Source: a virus. From it: DNA of 27,252 nt. Both the position numbers and the translations under genes were made by a program. Positions within the stretch are counted from its first letter, which is position 1. Each line of letters opens with the position of its first letter. The DNA is taken from IMG/VR virus record IMGVR_UViG_3300035698_031742, positions 1-27,252 of that record; one strand, 5' to 3'. The notes beneath the pieces are model-generated. The model ran no database searches. It was not told the origin of the DNA and saw nothing but the letters and a program-made list of their open reading frames with translations. Positions 18,309 through 26,913 of this stretch are shown piece by piece.

Positions 18309-18416
18309 TTCAAACACTCCTATTCAAAAAGGTTTATTTGAAATGCTTGGAAAATAAAATTAGGAAGGTCTTTTTAAGACTTTTCTACCGTAACCAAGCA
18401 TTATGGTGTTTGTGGG

Positions 18417-18469
18417 AAAGGACCGGAGGTTACGGCTCCGGTCCTTTGAGTGTCTTGCGCGCACAAGAC
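18417..18469. promoter_or_regulatory. Two adjacent hairpins between primase and initiator
   Basis: The gap 18309-18540 (232 bases) has no credible gene. It holds a 12-bp perfect stem AAAGGACCGGAG / CTCCGGTCCTTT with a 7-base loop (18417-18447) and, five bases on, a 6-bp stem GTCTTG / CAAGAC with a 6-base loop (18452-18469). The first could act as a terminator in either direction, although on the minus strand the U-rich arm is only UUU. These would separate primase from initiator expression. Confidence 0.55.
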
Positions 18470-18540
18470 CCCACCACCATGACAATTAAAAATAACCAAT
18501 ACAAAAAATTAGGTCAAGTATTATTTTATTTCCAATTTTT

Positions 18541-19779: not shown

Positions 19780-21134
19780 AACCAACCTGCCTCCACATAA
19801 ATTGCCATTCTTCTTATCCCATGGGCAGATAAATAATAATTGACATCTAAAAAATCAATTATTTCGACAGTACTTTTTTTATCCGTTTTTCTCAATCCGC
19901 GGCCAATTGTTTGCAAAGTCTGCACTTCGGATTTCCCACCGCAAGCATTAATTACAACATCTAATGTTGTAATATCAATTCCTTCCCGCCAAACATTTGT
20001 ACAAATGACACATTTTATTCTTTTTTTTACAAATTCTGTTCTTAAAACTTCTCGGACAGTAGTATTTGTTTTTCCTTGAACAAATTTATTTGGAATTTTA
20101 AAAAGATCAAATATTGCTTTTATATTATCCCCATGTTCAATTTCTTTGACCATTATTAAAACGGTTTTATTATCTTCTATCCGTTTTTTTGCTTCCTGAA
20201 CAATAAGATGGTTTCTAACACGATTTTTAATAATACCTAATTCATAATTTTTTTTATATGTCCTGGCATTTTCATATGCTCTAACTGGAACAGAAATTAG
20301 AGTAATTTTTGGTTTCGCAAGGAATCCTTTTTTAATTCCCTCTTGAATTGTTACTTCCCCGATGATCGGACCCATAAGCCCTTCTAAAACAAATTTTTGT
20401 TCTTTTTTTTCCGGCAGGGTTGCAGTAAATCCAATACGGGATACAGCTTTTTTCATTTTAACAATCGTTTTGCCATACATTCCAGACAAAGAAGCAATAT
20501 GATGAGCCTCATCAATAATAATAATATCATATTGATCAATCTTTTTTGAAGGATATTTCCAAAAAGTTTGAATCGAAGCAAAAGTCAATGGATGGGTATC
20601 ATCTTCTTCTTCTAAAGTCTTAGAACAAATACCATAATCAAATCCCCATTTTTTTGCTTCTTTACTTGCTTGTTTGATTATGGATGTGTTATGGCACAAA
20701 AAAATGGCCCTGGCGTTCGGATATTGACTAAGATACCCGAGCGCCAGGACCGTTTTGCCTGATCCGGTTGGAGATTTAATTACACCAATTTTTTCCGTTG
20801 TCATTTTATCAAGTAACAATTTTTGGTCATCCCTAAAAATAATTCCTGGGAGATTTGGTTCAATTTTTTTTTGCATTCTTTTGGATACAGAATTTGCCAT
20901 CAAATATTTAATTGTTGGATGTTCCCCTTTTTCTAAACAAAATTCGAAAACACGATTTGTAAACCCTAAAAGAAAACGATTGCCTGTCATAAAATAAGCA
21001 TCATATGTCTTTTTTTCGCCGCCAAATTTTTTACGAATAAATATTGTTTTATTATATTTTAGACATGGTTTTACAAAATTAATATAATCAACATCTATAT
21101 CACACCATAATGCATTTATTTGTCTGATTAACAT
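19776..21134 (-). CDS. UvsW-like SF2 DNA helicase
   Basis: A 452-aa superfamily 2 helicase. After an N-terminal domain of 95 residues, FRDDQKLLLDKM gives the Q-like motif, SPTGSGKT (121-128) Walker A, DEAHH (208-212) Walker B, GFTATLP (235-241) motif III, and near the end TIGRGLRK motif VI. The architecture and length match T4 UvsW and bacterial RadD-like enzymes that unwind branched DNA, R-loops and recombination intermediates. It starts with ATG behind AAAGG and a strong hairpin, and overlaps the next gene by four bases. Confidence 0.9.
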   Translation of the reverse strand: MLIRQINALWCDIDVDYINFVKPCLKYNKTIFIRKKFGGEKKTYDAYFMTGNRFLLGFTNRVFEFCLEKGEHPTIKYLMANSVSKRMQKKIEPNLPGIIFRDDQKLLLDKMTTEKIGVIKSPTGSGKTVLALGYLSQYPNARAIFLCHNTSIIKQASKEAKKWGFDYGICSKTLEEEDDTHPLTFASIQTFWKYPSKKIDQYDIIIIDEAHHIASLSGMYGKTIVKMKKAVSRIGFTATLPEKKEQKFVLEGLMGPIIGEVTIQEGIKKGFLAKPKITLISVPVRAYENARTYKKNYELGIIKNRVRNHLIVQEAKKRIEDNKTVLIMVKEIEHGDNIKAIFDLFKIPNKFVQGKTNTTVREVLRTEFVKKRIKCVICTNVWREGIDITTLDVVINACGGKSEVQTLQTIGRGLRKTDKKSTVEIIDFLDVNYYLSAHGIRRMAIYVEAGWL

Positions 21135-22299: not shown

Positions 22300-23466
22300 T
22301 TAAATCAAATTCGTCGCCTGTTCCTGAATTTGTTTTACAAGCATTGGAGTCATAATTCTCAAAAGCGTCCTTTTGTTTTTCGTGGCCGCTACATCTTCCA
22401 AGGATTTAATACCCCGCTCAAACATTTTTTTGGCTCGGGCACCACCAATACCCTTTAATTGACAAAGCGGTACAACTTCCTCGGAAACAGCATACTTGAT
22501 ACGAATGGGTAAAGATTTCCAAAAATCATCTTTTCCCCATTTTTCATAAAAACCATCAACCATTGAAAAAGATTGACAGATTCGATTAACATCAAAAATT
22601 AGATTTCGAGAAATAGCCTTGACCGTGCCATTTCCAGCTTCCCCATCCGTTAAGCAATTATACGCTGCCAATATAGCAGGAATAGAATTTTGGTTTTTAA
22701 CCTGGCATCCTCTGTTTTTCAAATGCCATAGAAAATCATCACATTCAGGCTGAAGATCCCTTGTGATGTATCCGGGATCATTTGAAGGAATGTCTCCAAT
22801 AGCCCATGCCAAGGTGATGTCATCCAAATCGATGAAAGATTCCTGCTTTTCTCCTTGAACTGGCCGTCCAAATAATTGACAAAAATTCTTATGCCATCCG
22901 GCCACATCATAGGGATTGTAATACATCCAAGCGGAAACCCTTCCAAGTCCTGTTACTCTTGGATGACCTTCGTAAATTTCTGTCATTTCCATTTCCGCCA
23001 AATCTTCCATCAAGGCAGAGGCATCCACTTTGTCAAATTTCATATCTTGACGAGATGCCAATGAACGAGAATACCAAGCAAAAAGATCCTTGTCTCCTTT
23101 GATTGCTTTGGTTTCAATTTCTGCCAGGACATGAAAAGCCAAGATTCCATGAGAATTTAAAACGGACGTAACAGGCCGTGGATTGGCAAAAGTGTATTGC
23201 CAGGCATTGGAACTTCCTTCCGGGATAACCATGAAGACATGGCCTTCATCATCAATCCCGTAACGGCCTGCCCGGCCTGCCATCTGAATGATATCCAATT
23301 CGTCAACTTCGGACATTCCGCGATGAACCCCAACAATTACAACATTTCTTGCCGGGAGGTTGCAATTATGGGTTAAAATCCCGTTTGCAAAAAAATTGTG
23401 ATTCTTTTCCGTTGTGATGTCAATCTGCTTGGTTGGTGGTTTCTTTTTGATTGATTTAATTCTCAT
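22300..23466 (-). CDS. C-intein plus C-terminal half of Ski2/Hel308-like helicase
   Basis: A 388-aa protein. Residues 1-34 are the C-intein: TKQIDITTEKNHNFFANG is intein block F and ILTHN the block G end (penultimate His, last Asn). Cys35 is the +1 nucleophile. The rest is the helicase C-half: CNLPARNVVIVG finishes motif V, QMAGRAGRYG (61-70) is motif VI, then a winged-helix and ratchet region ending in a hairpin-helix (CQLKGIGGARAKKMF, about 342-356). After trans-splicing, the helicase would be 536 + 354 = 890 aa. The ATG at 23466 has AAAGGAGG nine bases ahead, inside the endonuclease gene, and overlaps that gene's end by 11 bases, so it is expressed as its own protein. Confidence 0.93.
   Translation of the reverse strand: MRIKSIKKKPPTKQIDITTEKNHNFFANGILTHNCNLPARNVVIVGVHRGMSEVDELDIIQMAGRAGRYGIDDEGHVFMVIPEGSSNAWQYTFANPRPVTSVLNSHGILAFHVLAEIETKAIKGDKDLFAWYSRSLASRQDMKFDKVDASALMEDLAEMEMTEIYEGHPRVTGLGRVSAWMYYNPYDVAGWHKNFCQLFGRPVQGEKQESFIDLDDITLAWAIGDIPSNDPGYITRDLQPECDDFLWHLKNRGCQVKNQNSIPAILAAYNCLTDGEAGNGTVKAISRNLIFDVNRICQSFSMVDGFYEKWGKDDFWKSLPIRIKYAVSEEVVPLCQLKGIGGARAKKMFERGIKSLEDVAATKNKRTLLRIMTPMLVKQIQEQATNLI
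23365..23466 (-). other. C-intein (split intein, 34 residues)
   Basis: Codons 1-34 of the C-terminal helicase gene. KNHNFFANG matches the block F consensus, THN followed by Cys matches block G. Block F has Asp at position 4 (QID), as in ordinary inteins, where class 3 inteins have Cys. The junction is N34|C35 with C35 coded at 23362-23364. Confidence 0.92.
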
Positions 23467-24178
23467 TGGACAAAACCTCCTTTGTTTTAATTAAAATTTC
23501 TTGTGCAACGATTTGAGGGTTTTTTTGAGCATTAAAACGAAATCTATAAACTTTCCATCCCCGATTTCTTAAAAATCTATCTTTTTTAATATCCCTAATT
23601 CTTGTTTTATCATGCAATTTAGAATCAACTTCAATAGCAATCATCTTATCTAATAAAGCAAAATCTATCATATAAGACCCTTTATTAAATGGAACTTCAT
23701 AATCAAAAATAAATCCAAAAGGTAACAATACTTTTATTATTGCCTTTTCAAATTGACTTGGTTCATTATGCCTTCCAAGATGTTTAAATGGAGAGGTTTT
23801 TCTTCCTTCTTTATAAGCTTCTTTTAACCATTTTGAACTAGCTTGACCAATCCTTTCTTTTGCTTCTTTTGTATGAGTCTTTCCATAAAAATGATTTTCT
23901 TTTCCAGATTGATTATTATTTTTTTTATTTAAAGGAAAATTTTTTCTACAATAAATTTTTTTCATAGATTCGCTAATTTGTTTTTTTGTTTCTTCTGATT
24001 GGTGAGATCTATTTTTTGCCTTTTGTTTTAATTTTTCTTTTGTCGCCTGACAAGTAAAATTCGCATAAGGAAATTTATTCTTATATTCCGCCGCGGTCAT
24101 TCCATGTGAAAATAAATGCCCAGTTCCTATTTGTTTAAATTTTTTTCCACAGATTTGACAAATAATAAAATCTTTCAT
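23456..24178 (-). CDS. Free-standing homing endonuclease between the intein halves
   Basis: A 240-aa protein. Residues 7-25 form a C2H2-type zinc finger (CQIC ... HLFSH) followed by GMTAAEYKNKFP, a MucR-like pattern. Two NUMOD3-like DNA-binding segments follow (about 56-74 and 91-113, SGKENHFYGKTH). The C-terminal domain (about 140-230) is of the Vsr/DUF559 PD-(D/E)xK type: E144, D172, AIEVDSKLHD (181-190) and a RDIKKDRFLRNRGWKVYRFR tail. Free-standing nucleases with this fold are known between split-intein halves in 'fractured' phage-like genes. It would cut intein-free alleles and drive its own spread. AAGGAGGTAAAA precedes the ATG, adjacent to an 18-bp stem. Cleavage itself is inferred. 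Confidence 0.9.
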   Translation of the reverse strand: MKDFIICQICGKKFKQIGTGHLFSHGMTAAEYKNKFPYANFTCQATKEKLKQKAKNRSHQSEETKKQISESMKKIYCRKNFPLNKKNNNQSGKENHFYGKTHTKEAKERIGQASSKWLKEAYKEGRKTSPFKHLGRHNEPSQFEKAIIKVLLPFGFIFDYEVPFNKGSYMIDFALLDKMIAIEVDSKLHDKTRIRDIKKDRFLRNRGWKVYRFRFNAQKNPQIVAQEILIKTKEVLSNEN

Positions 24179-24188
24179 TTTTACCTCC

Positions 24189-24238
24189 TTGACTTGGGAT
24201 TATATTTTCAACTATCTTATAATATAACCCCAAGTCAA
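24189..24238 (-). promoter_or_regulatory. 18-bp stem-loop masking the endonuclease ribosome site
   Basis: In the minus-strand RNA, TTGACTTGGGGTTATATT pairs with AATATAATCCCAAGTCAA over 18 positions (17 Watson-Crick, one G.U) around a 14-base loop. The 3' arm ends exactly where GGAGG of the endonuclease ribosome site begins. It could block initiation on transcripts that read through from the N-terminal gene; hairpins doing this are known at several T-even phage endonuclease genes. Confidence 0.7.
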
Positions 24239-24258
24239 AGTCAAGCCCCAAGTCAAAG
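24228..24258. repeat. 13-bp direct repeat at the N-intein stop
   Basis: CCCCAAGTCAAAG occurs at 24228-24240 and 24246-24258. The second copy contains the TGA stop of the N-intein gene, the first forms part of the stem. A duplication of the stem arm into the intein end could have made the stop and thereby split the intein. Confidence 0.6.
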
Positions 24259-24549
24259 TATAACCAAATCGTCCATTTCTGTTAAATTGGCCGCTTCTTT
24301 TGTAATAAAACTTCCATCATCCTGACGAACATAAAAAGGATGTTTCTTATCAACCCGAATTGTCTGCCCATTTTCCAACTCAATTTCAAGGTCATATTCA
24401 GGTTCATATTCAAGAGCATTCAAAACAACATCTTGTTCAAATTTGCCAGTTTTTTCATTATAGGAACAAATTGCATTCCCGGCTTTGACATCTTTTGCAA
24501 GTTTTTTGGTTCCATTTGCCATCAAAATTTCTGTTTCCTCATTGACGGC
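24253..24549 (-). other. N-intein (split intein, 98 residues, Ala at position 1)
   Basis: Begins at Ala537 (codon at 24547-24549) of the N-terminal gene. AVNEETEILMANGTKKL is intein block A with Ala in place of the usual Cys or Ser at position 1; the sixth residue Thr and eighth Ile align with known inteins. Block B reads GQTIRVDKKHPFYV, with the conserved His but Asp in place of the usual Thr three residues before it. It ends FITKEAANLTEMDDLVIL. Confidence 0.9.
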
Positions 24550-26157
24550 GCCCCATGCCAAAGTTGATGTTGAAACAATAACTCTTAATCCCTTACCTTT
24601 GTCTTGAAAAGATTTTTCAATGGACAATCTTTCGTCCATTTTTAAATCTGCACTGTGAAAGCTGGCGTTCACGTCATGATTTTTCAAACGGCGAACCATA
24701 TCTCTGCCAGTTGCTTTATCATGGACAAAAACCAGAAATTTTTCATCAGGTTTTGATTTCACAATGTCCACAGCCATCCTTCTTTTGATAACTTGAGTTG
24801 CGTGATAATCCTGACCACCCCATGATGAACGAGCAGGGGTGTATTCGTGATAATGCATCTGAAGAACAACCGGACGCCAATTACAATAAATAACATCTGT
24901 ATCCTTCTTGTTAAGGGTTGTTAACCAATGGCCCAATTCATCAACATTAGGCATGGTTGCAGAAAGAAAAAGAACCCGGGCATTGAAATTCAAACGGGTA
25001 AATCGCATAATTCCCGTCTCAACTGCATGACCTCGATTGGTGGAAAGAATGTGACTTTCATCCACAATAACCAAGCCAACTTGCCCCATCCAGTAATTCT
25101 TTTCGGCCTTGTACTTCCGAGTCCGTGAATCCATCATCTCCGAAGTCATTACAATGATTCTGCTGCCGGTTATCTGCTTTTTCATGGCTTCTGAAAGAAC
25201 ATAATCGCCGGTCATGATTGTGATTTTTTCGTTTGGAAATCGTTTTTGCCAATCCTCGTACTTTTCCTGGGTCAAGGATTTCAAAGGGGATAAATAAATG
25301 ATCCTTTGATCGTTTGCCAAAACAAAATCCATCAAAAGTTCAGCACAAATGGTTTTGCCCGCGGAAGTATTAGCCCCGATGATCATATTACGGTCATGAT
25401 GCCGCAAAGGATAAACCAGGGATTGAACCGGATTGAAATTTTCAAAAGGATATTTCCAATCCTGATAATCTGTTGTCGGAATCAAAACGACATTATTGCC
25501 GTCCACAGGTTTTAATTGGCTTTTAATTCCAGCCAATTCTTTGTCTCTCTGAACAATGGCCTCGTTGATAAGTTGATCTGTTTCTTTATCCATGTCTGAG
25601 GCCTCTTCCAATCCATCAAGATAATCCTGGACAAATTCTGGATTCCTGCTTTTGACATTGGCTTCCAAAGTGGGATAACCTTTTGGTGATGTTTCTCCCA
25701 GGACATAAGCCATTTGCCCATCTGATAAAATTCCCCTCTGATTGACTTGTTCCAAAAGGGATTGTGCAAATTTACTGCGTGAATTGGCGGAAAGAACAGC
25801 TTTTACGTAATTAAAATCTATAATCTGTTGTTTTCCGGCATCGGCCATGAATTCCTGAATCCGGGAATGAATCCTATCTTGGATTGTAGTGGCCCCATCA
25901 ACCCGTAGAATTTTCTTTCCCTTGCCCATGGGTCGGTCATTTGGAATGTCCCAAAAAACCACCCGTATGGCATCTTTGCCTTTTTCCCTGGTTATTTGTG
26001 TCCGTTTATCAACTGTGCTGTAAATACGGACATTGATTCCCGTGTTTTCTGTCGGGATATCATAAACAACTTCCAGGGCATCAGGGACATCAGCAATAAA
26101 AGCATCCCCGGGCAAAATTGCCTCAAATTCCTGCTTTGTCAATTTTACAAAACCCAT
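24253..26157 (-). CDS. N-terminal half of Ski2/Hel308-like helicase plus N-intein
   Basis: A 634-aa protein. Residues 1-105 carry a small domain (VRIYSTVDKRTQITREKGKD, RPMGKGKKILRVDG) of a type also seen alone in phages, and 115-185 a helical linker. The SF2 core has GANTSAGKT (261-269, Walker A), VDESH (365-369), SATMP (399-403) and motif V TSTLAWG (530-536). It stops exactly there: residues 537-634 are the N-intein, so helicase motif VI is missing and is supplied by the gene at 22300-23466. AAGGAGG precedes the ATG at 26157. The complete helicase requires trans-splicing. Ski2-type helicases unwind branched DNA or RNA and are unusual in phages. Confidence 0.94.
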   Translation of the reverse strand: MGFVKLTKQEFEAILPGDAFIADVPDALEVVYDIPTENTGINVRIYSTVDKRTQITREKGKDAIRVVFWDIPNDRPMGKGKKILRVDGATTIQDRIHSRIQEFMADAGKQQIIDFNYVKAVLSANSRSKFAQSLLEQVNQRGILSDGQMAYVLGETSPKGYPTLEANVKSRNPEFVQDYLDGLEEASDMDKETDQLINEAIVQRDKELAGIKSQLKPVDGNNVVLIPTTDYQDWKYPFENFNPVQSLVYPLRHHDRNMIIGANTSAGKTICAELLMDFVLANDQRIIYLSPLKSLTQEKYEDWQKRFPNEKITIMTGDYVLSEAMKKQITGSRIIVMTSEMMDSRTRKYKAEKNYWMGQVGLVIVDESHILSTNRGHAVETGIMRFTRLNFNARVLFLSATMPNVDELGHWLTTLNKKDTDVIYCNWRPVVLQMHYHEYTPARSSWGGQDYHATQVIKRRMAVDIVKSKPDEKFLVFVHDKATGRDMVRRLKNHDVNASFHSADLKMDERLSIEKSFQDKGKGLRVIVSTSTLAWGAVNEETEILMANGTKKLAKDVKAGNAICSYNEKTGKFEQDVVLNALEYEPEYDLEIELENGQTIRVDKKHPFYVRQDDGSFITKEAANLTEMDDLVIL

Positions 26158-26180: not shown

Positions 26181-26390
26181 TTATATTAAATCCATGCCAA
26201 TTTTTTCAAGTTCATCAATTGTGAATTGATCAAATTCATCAATTGTAAATTGAACAGAACCTTCTTCCATCAATAAGTAACTTAACCGAAAACAAATCCT
26301 CATATTATAAGAAGTTATTTTTCTTAATGTCGATATGATTCTGTATATTGATGGAGTTGGACCTTTCGTAAACTTTATTCCGATTTCCAT
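26181..26390 (-). CDS. Small hypothetical protein, 69 aa
   Basis: Not recognised. It has a basic N-terminal two-thirds and an acidic C-terminus with an internal repeat FTIDEFDQFTIDEL, coded by a short tandem DNA repeat (TTCATCAATTGT-like units at 26210-26250). AAAGGAGAAAGAAAA lies before the ATG. It follows the candidate structured RNA and precedes the split helicase. Confidence 0.65.
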   Translation of the reverse strand: MEIGIKFTKGPTPSIYRIISTLRKITSYNMRICFRLSYLLMEEGSVQFTIDEFDQFTIDELEKIGMDLI

Positions 26391-26416
26391 TTTTCTTTCT
26401 CCTTTTTAAAAGTTAA

Positions 26417-26742
26417 TATTAAATTCAAAATGAAAAGGACATTCTCATTTACTCTATCTTCCCATGACAGATTTGTTCTCAGGCCCGCTCAAAACGGTTC
26501 CAAAAGAGTCCCGGTATTATTGTGGCTTTCCAGATGCCCCCGGAAGGGTCGTCGACCCGTTTATTGCACAGAGCTACGTCTATTCACCACTTTCCTATCC
26601 TTCACGAAGAAGGGACCAAAATAACCGTGAGGTCTATGGCAACATTTCAGTAACATGGTTTCAAACGAGATGCGCGTCCTGTCTCCCTCTATCTGGTGTT
26701 GTTTTTGAGAACGAGAATGCCCTTTTCACTTTGAATTTAATA
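26417..26742 (-). ncRNA. Candidate large structured RNA closed by a 33-bp inverted repeat
   Basis: About 326 bases without a convincing gene on the minus strand. The ends (26417-26449 and 26710-26742) are inverted repeats matching at 30 of 33 positions. All three differences are A/G such that minus-strand RNA would form G.U pairs, whereas plus-strand RNA would have A-C mismatches. Hairpins inside include GGGTC / GACCC with a 3-base loop (near 26548-26560) and CCTTC / GAAGG (near 26600-26615), plus possible long-range CCAGAU / AUCUGG. GC is higher than in neighbouring DNA. A MITE-like insertion is the alternative. I see no match to tmRNA or RNase P motifs. Confidence 0.5.
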
Positions 26743-26913
26743 ACACCCCATCATTTCAAGCACTTTCATTGTTTTTTTCCATCGTGTCTTTCTCGGTCGA
26801 TGTTTAATCCCTTCCTCCACGGCATCACAGATATCACGGGCTTCCGCCTGAGTGAGCATCAGAACAATCACCGTGTCTTTTGCTGGCCCGGTTTCTTCGG
26901 TGAACAAGCGCAT
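26737..26913 (-). CDS. Small hypothetical protein, 58 aa
   Basis: A 58-aa protein: an acidic N-terminus (MRLFTEETGPAKDT), a central helix (VLMLTQAEARDICDAVEEGI) and a basic tail (KHRPRKTRWKKTMKVLEMMG). The ATG at 26913 overlaps the previous stop (TAATG) with AAGGAGG eight bases ahead. Its stop lies inside the 5' arm of the 33-bp inverted repeat. It is not recognised. Confidence 0.7.
   Translation of the reverse strand: MRLFTEETGPAKDTVIVLMLTQAEARDICDAVEEGIKHRPRKTRWKKTMKVLEMMGCY

Follow-up and report, generated by a model that had tools for sequence, protein, structure and literature searches.

On comparative sequence evidence, a gene-free island on the minus strand of a viral genome record encodes a genuine noncoding RNA that belongs to no catalogued family, because two distantly related phages keep its fold with different stem sequences. 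The feature (26417-26742) is located in the 27,252-nt IMG/VR virus record IMGVR_UViG_3300035698_031742, which was analyzed over its whole length and is referred to as the window. Three members of the RNA are known (window, L101, and L096), and their comparison shows a conserved predicted structure, in which a long stem closes a branched core carrying a few invariant single-stranded blocks. The best explanation, to which we assign a probability of roughly 60%, is a structured noncoding RNA of ∼300 nt that would be co-read from the minus strand with replication-module genes, processed at its stem, and active in trans.

The arms of the inverted repeat (26417-26449 and 26710-26742) are 33 nt each, 91% complementary, and separated by 260 nt. 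In minus-strand RNA they form 30 Watson-Crick and 3 G.U pairs. Each of the three arm differences sets an A in the left arm against a G in the reverse complement of the right arm, giving G.U on the minus strand and A.C on the plus strand. The repeat scores 24 (+1/-2 scoring); the second-ranking repeat of the window reaches 18, and the highest score among 40 first-order Markov shuffles of the window sequence is 17. It fills the longest intergenic gap of the window (26391-26736, 346 nt), where the GC content is 42-49% compared with 28-33% immediately downstream. A 58-aa ORF located upstream (26737-26913, minus strand; taken from the ORF list and matching no Pfam family) has its stop codon in the 5′ arm, with the stop side 6 bases inside the stem. 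The original prediction had described a 33-bp inverted repeat around ∼260 bases, arm differences that are G.U on the minus and A-C on the plus strand, a higher GC content, the lack of a gene, and a 58-aa gene ending within the stem, and all of these hold upon measurement. It had also taken the G.U bias as an argument for RNA, which is weak for the single stem (the chance estimate for the window stem alone is 0.04 to 0.25, depending on how transitions are counted) but stands when the two homologues are included (7 of 7 non-Watson-Crick pairs are G.U).

Two ORFs of 64 and 154 aa that cross the island on the plus strand were rejected as genes: they match no Pfam family, have no tblastn relative in phages, and have a codon score of ≤0, which is a weak test as an accepted 104-aa ORF also scores <0. 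No strong promoter or terminator is found beside the window copy. The repeat with its interior folds better than shuffled sequences (z = -4.96), and this is due to the closing stem, because the 260-nt interior alone folds no better than shuffles (z = +0.42 on the minus and +1.83 on the plus strand). As interior folding, Rfam, and database scans were uninformative for the window alone, evidence for an RNA had to come from relatives.

Relatives were gathered with the DnaE and helicase proteins of the window, yielding 44 mostly viral records (G001-G044). The covariance search suggested with the original prediction was run using a model built from the window sequence alone (R1), one from window and L101 (R2), and a core model of all three members (R3). 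R1 finds no match in the first 33 of the 44 records and one among the 11 later ones (G038:34087-34383, minus strand, corresponding to L101:3843-4139; 62.1 bits, E = 1.6e-21). R2 adds G035:48535-48840 on the minus strand (L096:7070-7375; 41.7 bits, E = 2.9e-13), and the R3 search returned no member beyond these three. The Infernal E-values are rough owing to short calibrations, and a long stem can inflate the score: the window plus strand reaches 46.7 bits with R1 since the stem is its own reverse complement, and we rejected this strand as a second RNA. We thus repeated the search with sequence-only profiles lacking the closing stem. In ∼1.6 Mb, nhmmer locates L101 with the window core alone (26566-26687, minus strand; E = 2.2e-9) and L096 with a window plus L101 core profile (E = 3.1e-7). 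No member was found when the search was extended class-wide to 291 Desulfobacterales-related genomes and to two more phages. A core match in the Streptococcus satellite phages Javan737/756 (E = 3) was discarded as chance, with R1 giving no match there and the other blocks absent.

The closing stem P1 (5′ arm 26710-26742, 3′ arm 26417-26449) pairs at 33 of 33 positions in the window, including the 3 G.U pairs, and homologous stems of different sequence are present in L101 (22/22 pairs) and L096 (19/19). Summed over the three members, 67 of 74 closing-stem pairs are Watson-Crick; the other 7 read as G.U on the coding strand, and A.C is absent. Arms that vary without compensation had been named as an observation that would speak against a functional RNA; we find the opposite, with an arm identity between members of 0.42-0.59 and every stem fully paired. 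When window and L101 are aligned by MAFFT without regard to structure, 13 predicted pairs survive although both of their bases have changed; eight of these belong to the closing stem (columns 10-25). This evidence is independent of the hand-curated core alignment described below. The surrounding replication genes and the long inverted repeat, a classic DNA feature, would also fit a replication origin or a recombination or packaging site, with the repeat acting as a cruciform or binding site. We regard such a DNA element as extremely improbable, because the only imperfect pairs are of a type that RNA tolerates, on one strand, in three phages, because compensatory changes reach short internal helices that DNA does not need, and because the GC skew does not change at the site.

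Within the folded unit (predicted to span 26417-26742, ∼326 nt, minus strand), the conserved core (26566-26687) contains several short helices. P4a pairs CGUUUG (26662-26667) with UAGACG (26577-26582), and P4b pairs ACCAU (26655-26659) with GUGGU (26586-26590). Each has changes on both sides in 3 of 5 aligned pairs of the hand-curated alignment, with three pair types at two positions in P4b. Hairpin P6 (CCUUC-UUCGU-GAAGG, 26599-26613) becomes CCUUA/UAAGG in L101 and CACG/CGUG in L096, with 4 of 5 pairs changed on both sides. Hairpin P5/P5b (GCCA...UGGU with inner GACC/GGUU, 26615-26640) shows an inner A-U to G-C change in L101, its outer helix is kept in L096, and one P5 pair is changed on one side. 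Overall, both-side changes are found in 10 of 19 curated core pairs compared with a shuffle value of 3.5, and pairing holds in 96% of cells compared with 30-52% in slid versions of the alignment. These counts lean towards structure, as the alignment was placed by hand, with N padding, P5b removed from two of the rows, and the loop bases of the remaining row shortened. Compensatory changes across homologues, the general hallmark of structured noncoding RNA, are thus present in the closing stem by a structure-blind alignment and in the core helices by a curated one. Together with the position of all three members on the strand of their neighboring genes, they support the original claim of a functional minus-strand RNA, at the level of sequence comparison.

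Five blocks are invariant in all three members: ACAGGACGnGCA, GCCAUA, UAGGrAA, GCUCUGUG (26567-26574), and GCCUGA. The CAGG of ACAGGACGnGCA (26678-26681) can pair with the CCUG of GCCUGA (26480-26483), which we propose as the 5′ and 3′ strands of a helix P3. Alternatively, ACAGG can pair with UCUGU of GCUCUGUG; covariation cannot choose between the two pairings because both are invariant. ACAGG/CCUG and ACAGG/UCUGU are mutually exclusive and would define two alternating states, with the long stem keeping the RNA closed. We consider it unlikely that the RNA represents a new class of phage RNA machine with such a switchable core, be it catalytic, RNA-only, or a ribonucleoprotein.

Comparison with known families agrees with the original statement that the island belongs to no recognized one (tmRNA, RNase P, group I intron, or other). 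The window has no match at gathering score in Rfam 15, and no related family is found at E ≤ 5 for the window, L101, or L096 members; Freshwater-2 (E = 0.31) was rejected, being below its own threshold and matching mainly on the side of the ribosome-binding site. The Rfam models for RNase P RNA, 6S RNA, and group I introns do not match. ARAGORN on the window and Rfam find no tmRNA, which would have a tRNA-like domain and a tag reading frame. A retron msr-msd RNA, flanked by inverted repeats, would have a reverse transcriptase gene beside it, and the neighboring proteins in the three phages match no Pfam reverse transcriptase family. DNA comparison with phage and plasmid records returned RBS-like fragments only, or nothing. 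Size and branched fold would be compatible with a very divergent copy of RNase P RNA, tmRNA, 6S RNA, a group I intron, ROOL, or GOLLD that profiles miss, and large phage RNAs without assigned function do exist (PMC12286853). This appears very unlikely, given that permissive Rfam 15 filters return nothing related for any of the three members, that ARAGORN finds no tmRNA in the window, that the CR-I/CR-V blocks of RNase P RNA are not seen, and that there is no interrupted exon as an intron would have.

ROOL and GOLLD are large structured noncoding RNAs of phages and prophages whose function is not known and which were recognized via covariation; GOLLD exceeds 800 nt, and both are often found near tRNA islands (PMC12286853). 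Covariance models for ROOL, GOLLD, and OLE are held in Rfam (PMC12286853), and none of them matches the window, L101, or L096 RNA. The window RNA resembles ROOL and GOLLD as a phage-encoded structured noncoding RNA recognized by covariation (PMC12286853), but differs in its size of ∼300 nt, its 19-33-bp closing stem, its location in a replication module away from any credible tRNA, and the lack of an Rfam match. A tRNA-Leu called by ARAGORN at 19905-19997 (minus strand) lies inside a helicase gene and is probably false. Noncoding RNAs have also been reported for phage ICP1 and the inverted-repeat region of PLE satellites (PMC7567579). The likeness lies in a noncoding RNA of a phage-type genome and, for PLE, in its discussion together with flanking terminal inverted repeats (PMC7567579), whereas, comparing descriptions, the PLE RNA is antisense-similar to PLE gene leaders and the window RNA is unrepeated in its own record. 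We place the predicted RNA in the broad group of structured noncoding RNAs that phages encode and that have no assigned function; within this group it fails the sequence test for every Rfam family and has an architecture of its own.

The genes around the window RNA are all on the minus strand, in the order 58-aa ORF, RNA, 69-aa ORF, and Ski2-like helicase. The 69-aa ORF (26181-26390) starts 26 nt past the stem and shares no homology with the genes found after the RNA in L101 and L096. The distance from the end of the stem to a ribosome-binding site and start codon is 24-60 nt in each of the three phages. This spacing, and the two invariant pairing options of ACAGG, which would allow a switch, could indicate a cis-acting leader or attenuator that stays folded within the mRNA and regulates the translation or the stability of the next gene. 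Yet the next genes are unlike one another (69 aa, a 15-codon frame, and a 39-aa membrane-like peptide), and the RNA is found upstream of the helicase in two phages (by one small gene in the window and by ∼4.2 kb in L101) and ∼0.3 kb downstream of it in L096. In addition, the three members share no conserved expression platform outside the stem, and a closing stem of 19-33 bp is unusual for a leader. We therefore find a leader for one gene unlikely: the differing next genes and the varying position near the helicase make an RNA excised from the operon transcript at its long stem and acting in trans the likelier reading.

The helicase gene itself (22300-26157, minus strand) is split in the window. 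Its N-terminal part ends in an intein N-half, its C-terminal part starts with an intein C-half, and a free-standing NUMOD/DUF559-type endonuclease ORF (23456-24178) is located in between. This arrangement resembles a fractured gene that carries a split intein; the helicase is uninterrupted in the relatives L004 and L005, and in L076 (1263-2054) a relative of this endonuclease interrupts the helicase at a different residue (∼284).

The distribution of the RNA is patchy, which incomplete records may explain in part. On a helicase tree of 11 phages its presence requires three changes, and the starred branches force at least two. The nearest phage by helicase (L066, 61%) has no RNA between its homologue of the 104-aa ORF and the helicase, and no R1 or R2 match in its record. 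This pattern and the varying position relative to the helicase would be compatible with a mobile or once-mobile, MITE-like inverted-repeat element in which the RNA was retained and the terminal inverted repeats are the old ends, as has been proposed for the noncoding RNA of Vibrio cholerae PLE satellites (PMC7567579). The stem spans from the stop codon to just ahead of the next ribosome-binding site, and in the window its ends, TTAAATTC...GAATTTAA, are located between TA and TA, which is part of a palindrome. An 18-nt direct repeat, GCAGATATGAGAGGGTTA, lies on either side of the L101 copy and occurs nowhere else in the L101 locus; long direct repeats are absent from the flanks of the window and L096 copies.

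Identical copies elsewhere, which the original prediction had linked to a mobile element, were not found. Each record holds one copy: the DNA of the window RNA is not repeated in its own record, and scans with the arm pattern in IMG/VR and GTDB genomes were empty. The several near-identical copies with conserved ends typical of MITEs are not seen, as arms and interior are absent from IMG/VR and the arms from GTDB genomes. Furthermore, the ends of such elements are usually conserved, but the arms differ from member to member, and compensatory changes in arms and core point to selection on the RNA fold. We thus regard a MITE-like element as distinctly unlikely. The RNA may nevertheless have been mobile in the past, given the 18-nt repeat flanking the L101 copy.

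Other long-stem RNAs and repeats are present in the window and its relatives. A related 273-kb phage has three long-stem RNAs in or beside its tRNA array (L053:356-693, L052:11533-11707, and L049:444-634), none of which was identified as a known non-tRNA family. The first of these (338 nt; G002:140356-140693) has a ∼31-bp stem around ∼276 nt (z = -5.7) and resembles the window RNA in its closing-stem architecture. Unlike the window RNA, it follows a sigma-70-like promoter and precedes tRNA-Met within a tRNA array, and it is not matched by R1, R2, or R3.

The window contains a second strongly folded gap (18330-18490, minus strand; z = -5.88) between the primase and a 451-aa gene, in which an outer stem encloses two hairpins and is followed by a further stem. 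The loop sequence CCGTAACC (at 18435) has its complement in GGTTACGG (at 18395), and a loop-loop pseudoknot is likely. Downstream of the primase in four relatives (L026:2173-2284, L066:9519-9609, L068:16051-16149, and L076:9614-9728) we find a 23-32-bp hairpin whose loop has 9-11 bases complementary to the 5′ flank; complementarity as long occurs in 0, 6, 0, and 6 of 300 loop shuffles, respectively. These hairpins may correspond to the pseudoknot RNA of the window; as members of the RNA described here, the long inverted repeats of these relatives were rejected, being a different hairpin. The 29-bp inverted repeat in L069 (3365-3706) was also rejected, as it encloses an 88-aa ORF. In G001, imperfect palindromes of 49-53 bp are repeated between small ORFs (L029:11865, 12369, and 13056; L030:771 and 1243), and small ORFs between long repeats in L069 and G001 may be mobile or shuffled cassettes.

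In ribosomal RNA precursors, a long paired stem is processed by RNase III. The closing stem of the window RNA is alike in being long and perfectly paired, in joining the RNA ends, and in being free in sequence while pairing is kept. It differs in that the enclosed RNA is not ribosomal (it has no Rfam match), and RNase III cutting is proposed by analogy. A long stem with free sequence suggests an RNase III processing stem, whose sequence would be free to change because only length and pairing are needed. We thus favor an RNA gene of ∼300 nt that would be read from the minus strand along with the surrounding replication-module genes, the long double-stranded stem forming during transcription of the operon. 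Host RNase III would then cut both sides of the stem, releasing a stable RNA and leaving the neighboring messages intact. The released RNA would act in trans, its core possibly providing the surface on which a protein, a host RNA, or the RNA itself is bound. In this proposal, processing by RNase III is drawn from the analogy and action in trans from the changing neighbors.

Phages carry structured RNAs without assigned function, of which few families have been described. At ∼300 nt and with a clear core containing invariant blocks, the RNA reported here is small enough for chemical probing and cryo-EM, and the covariance models built in this work make RNA-seq and metagenome archives searchable for more members. 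Should its long stem serve for processing, this would show that phages cut a structural RNA out of an operon of protein genes, much as ribosomal RNA is released from its precursor.
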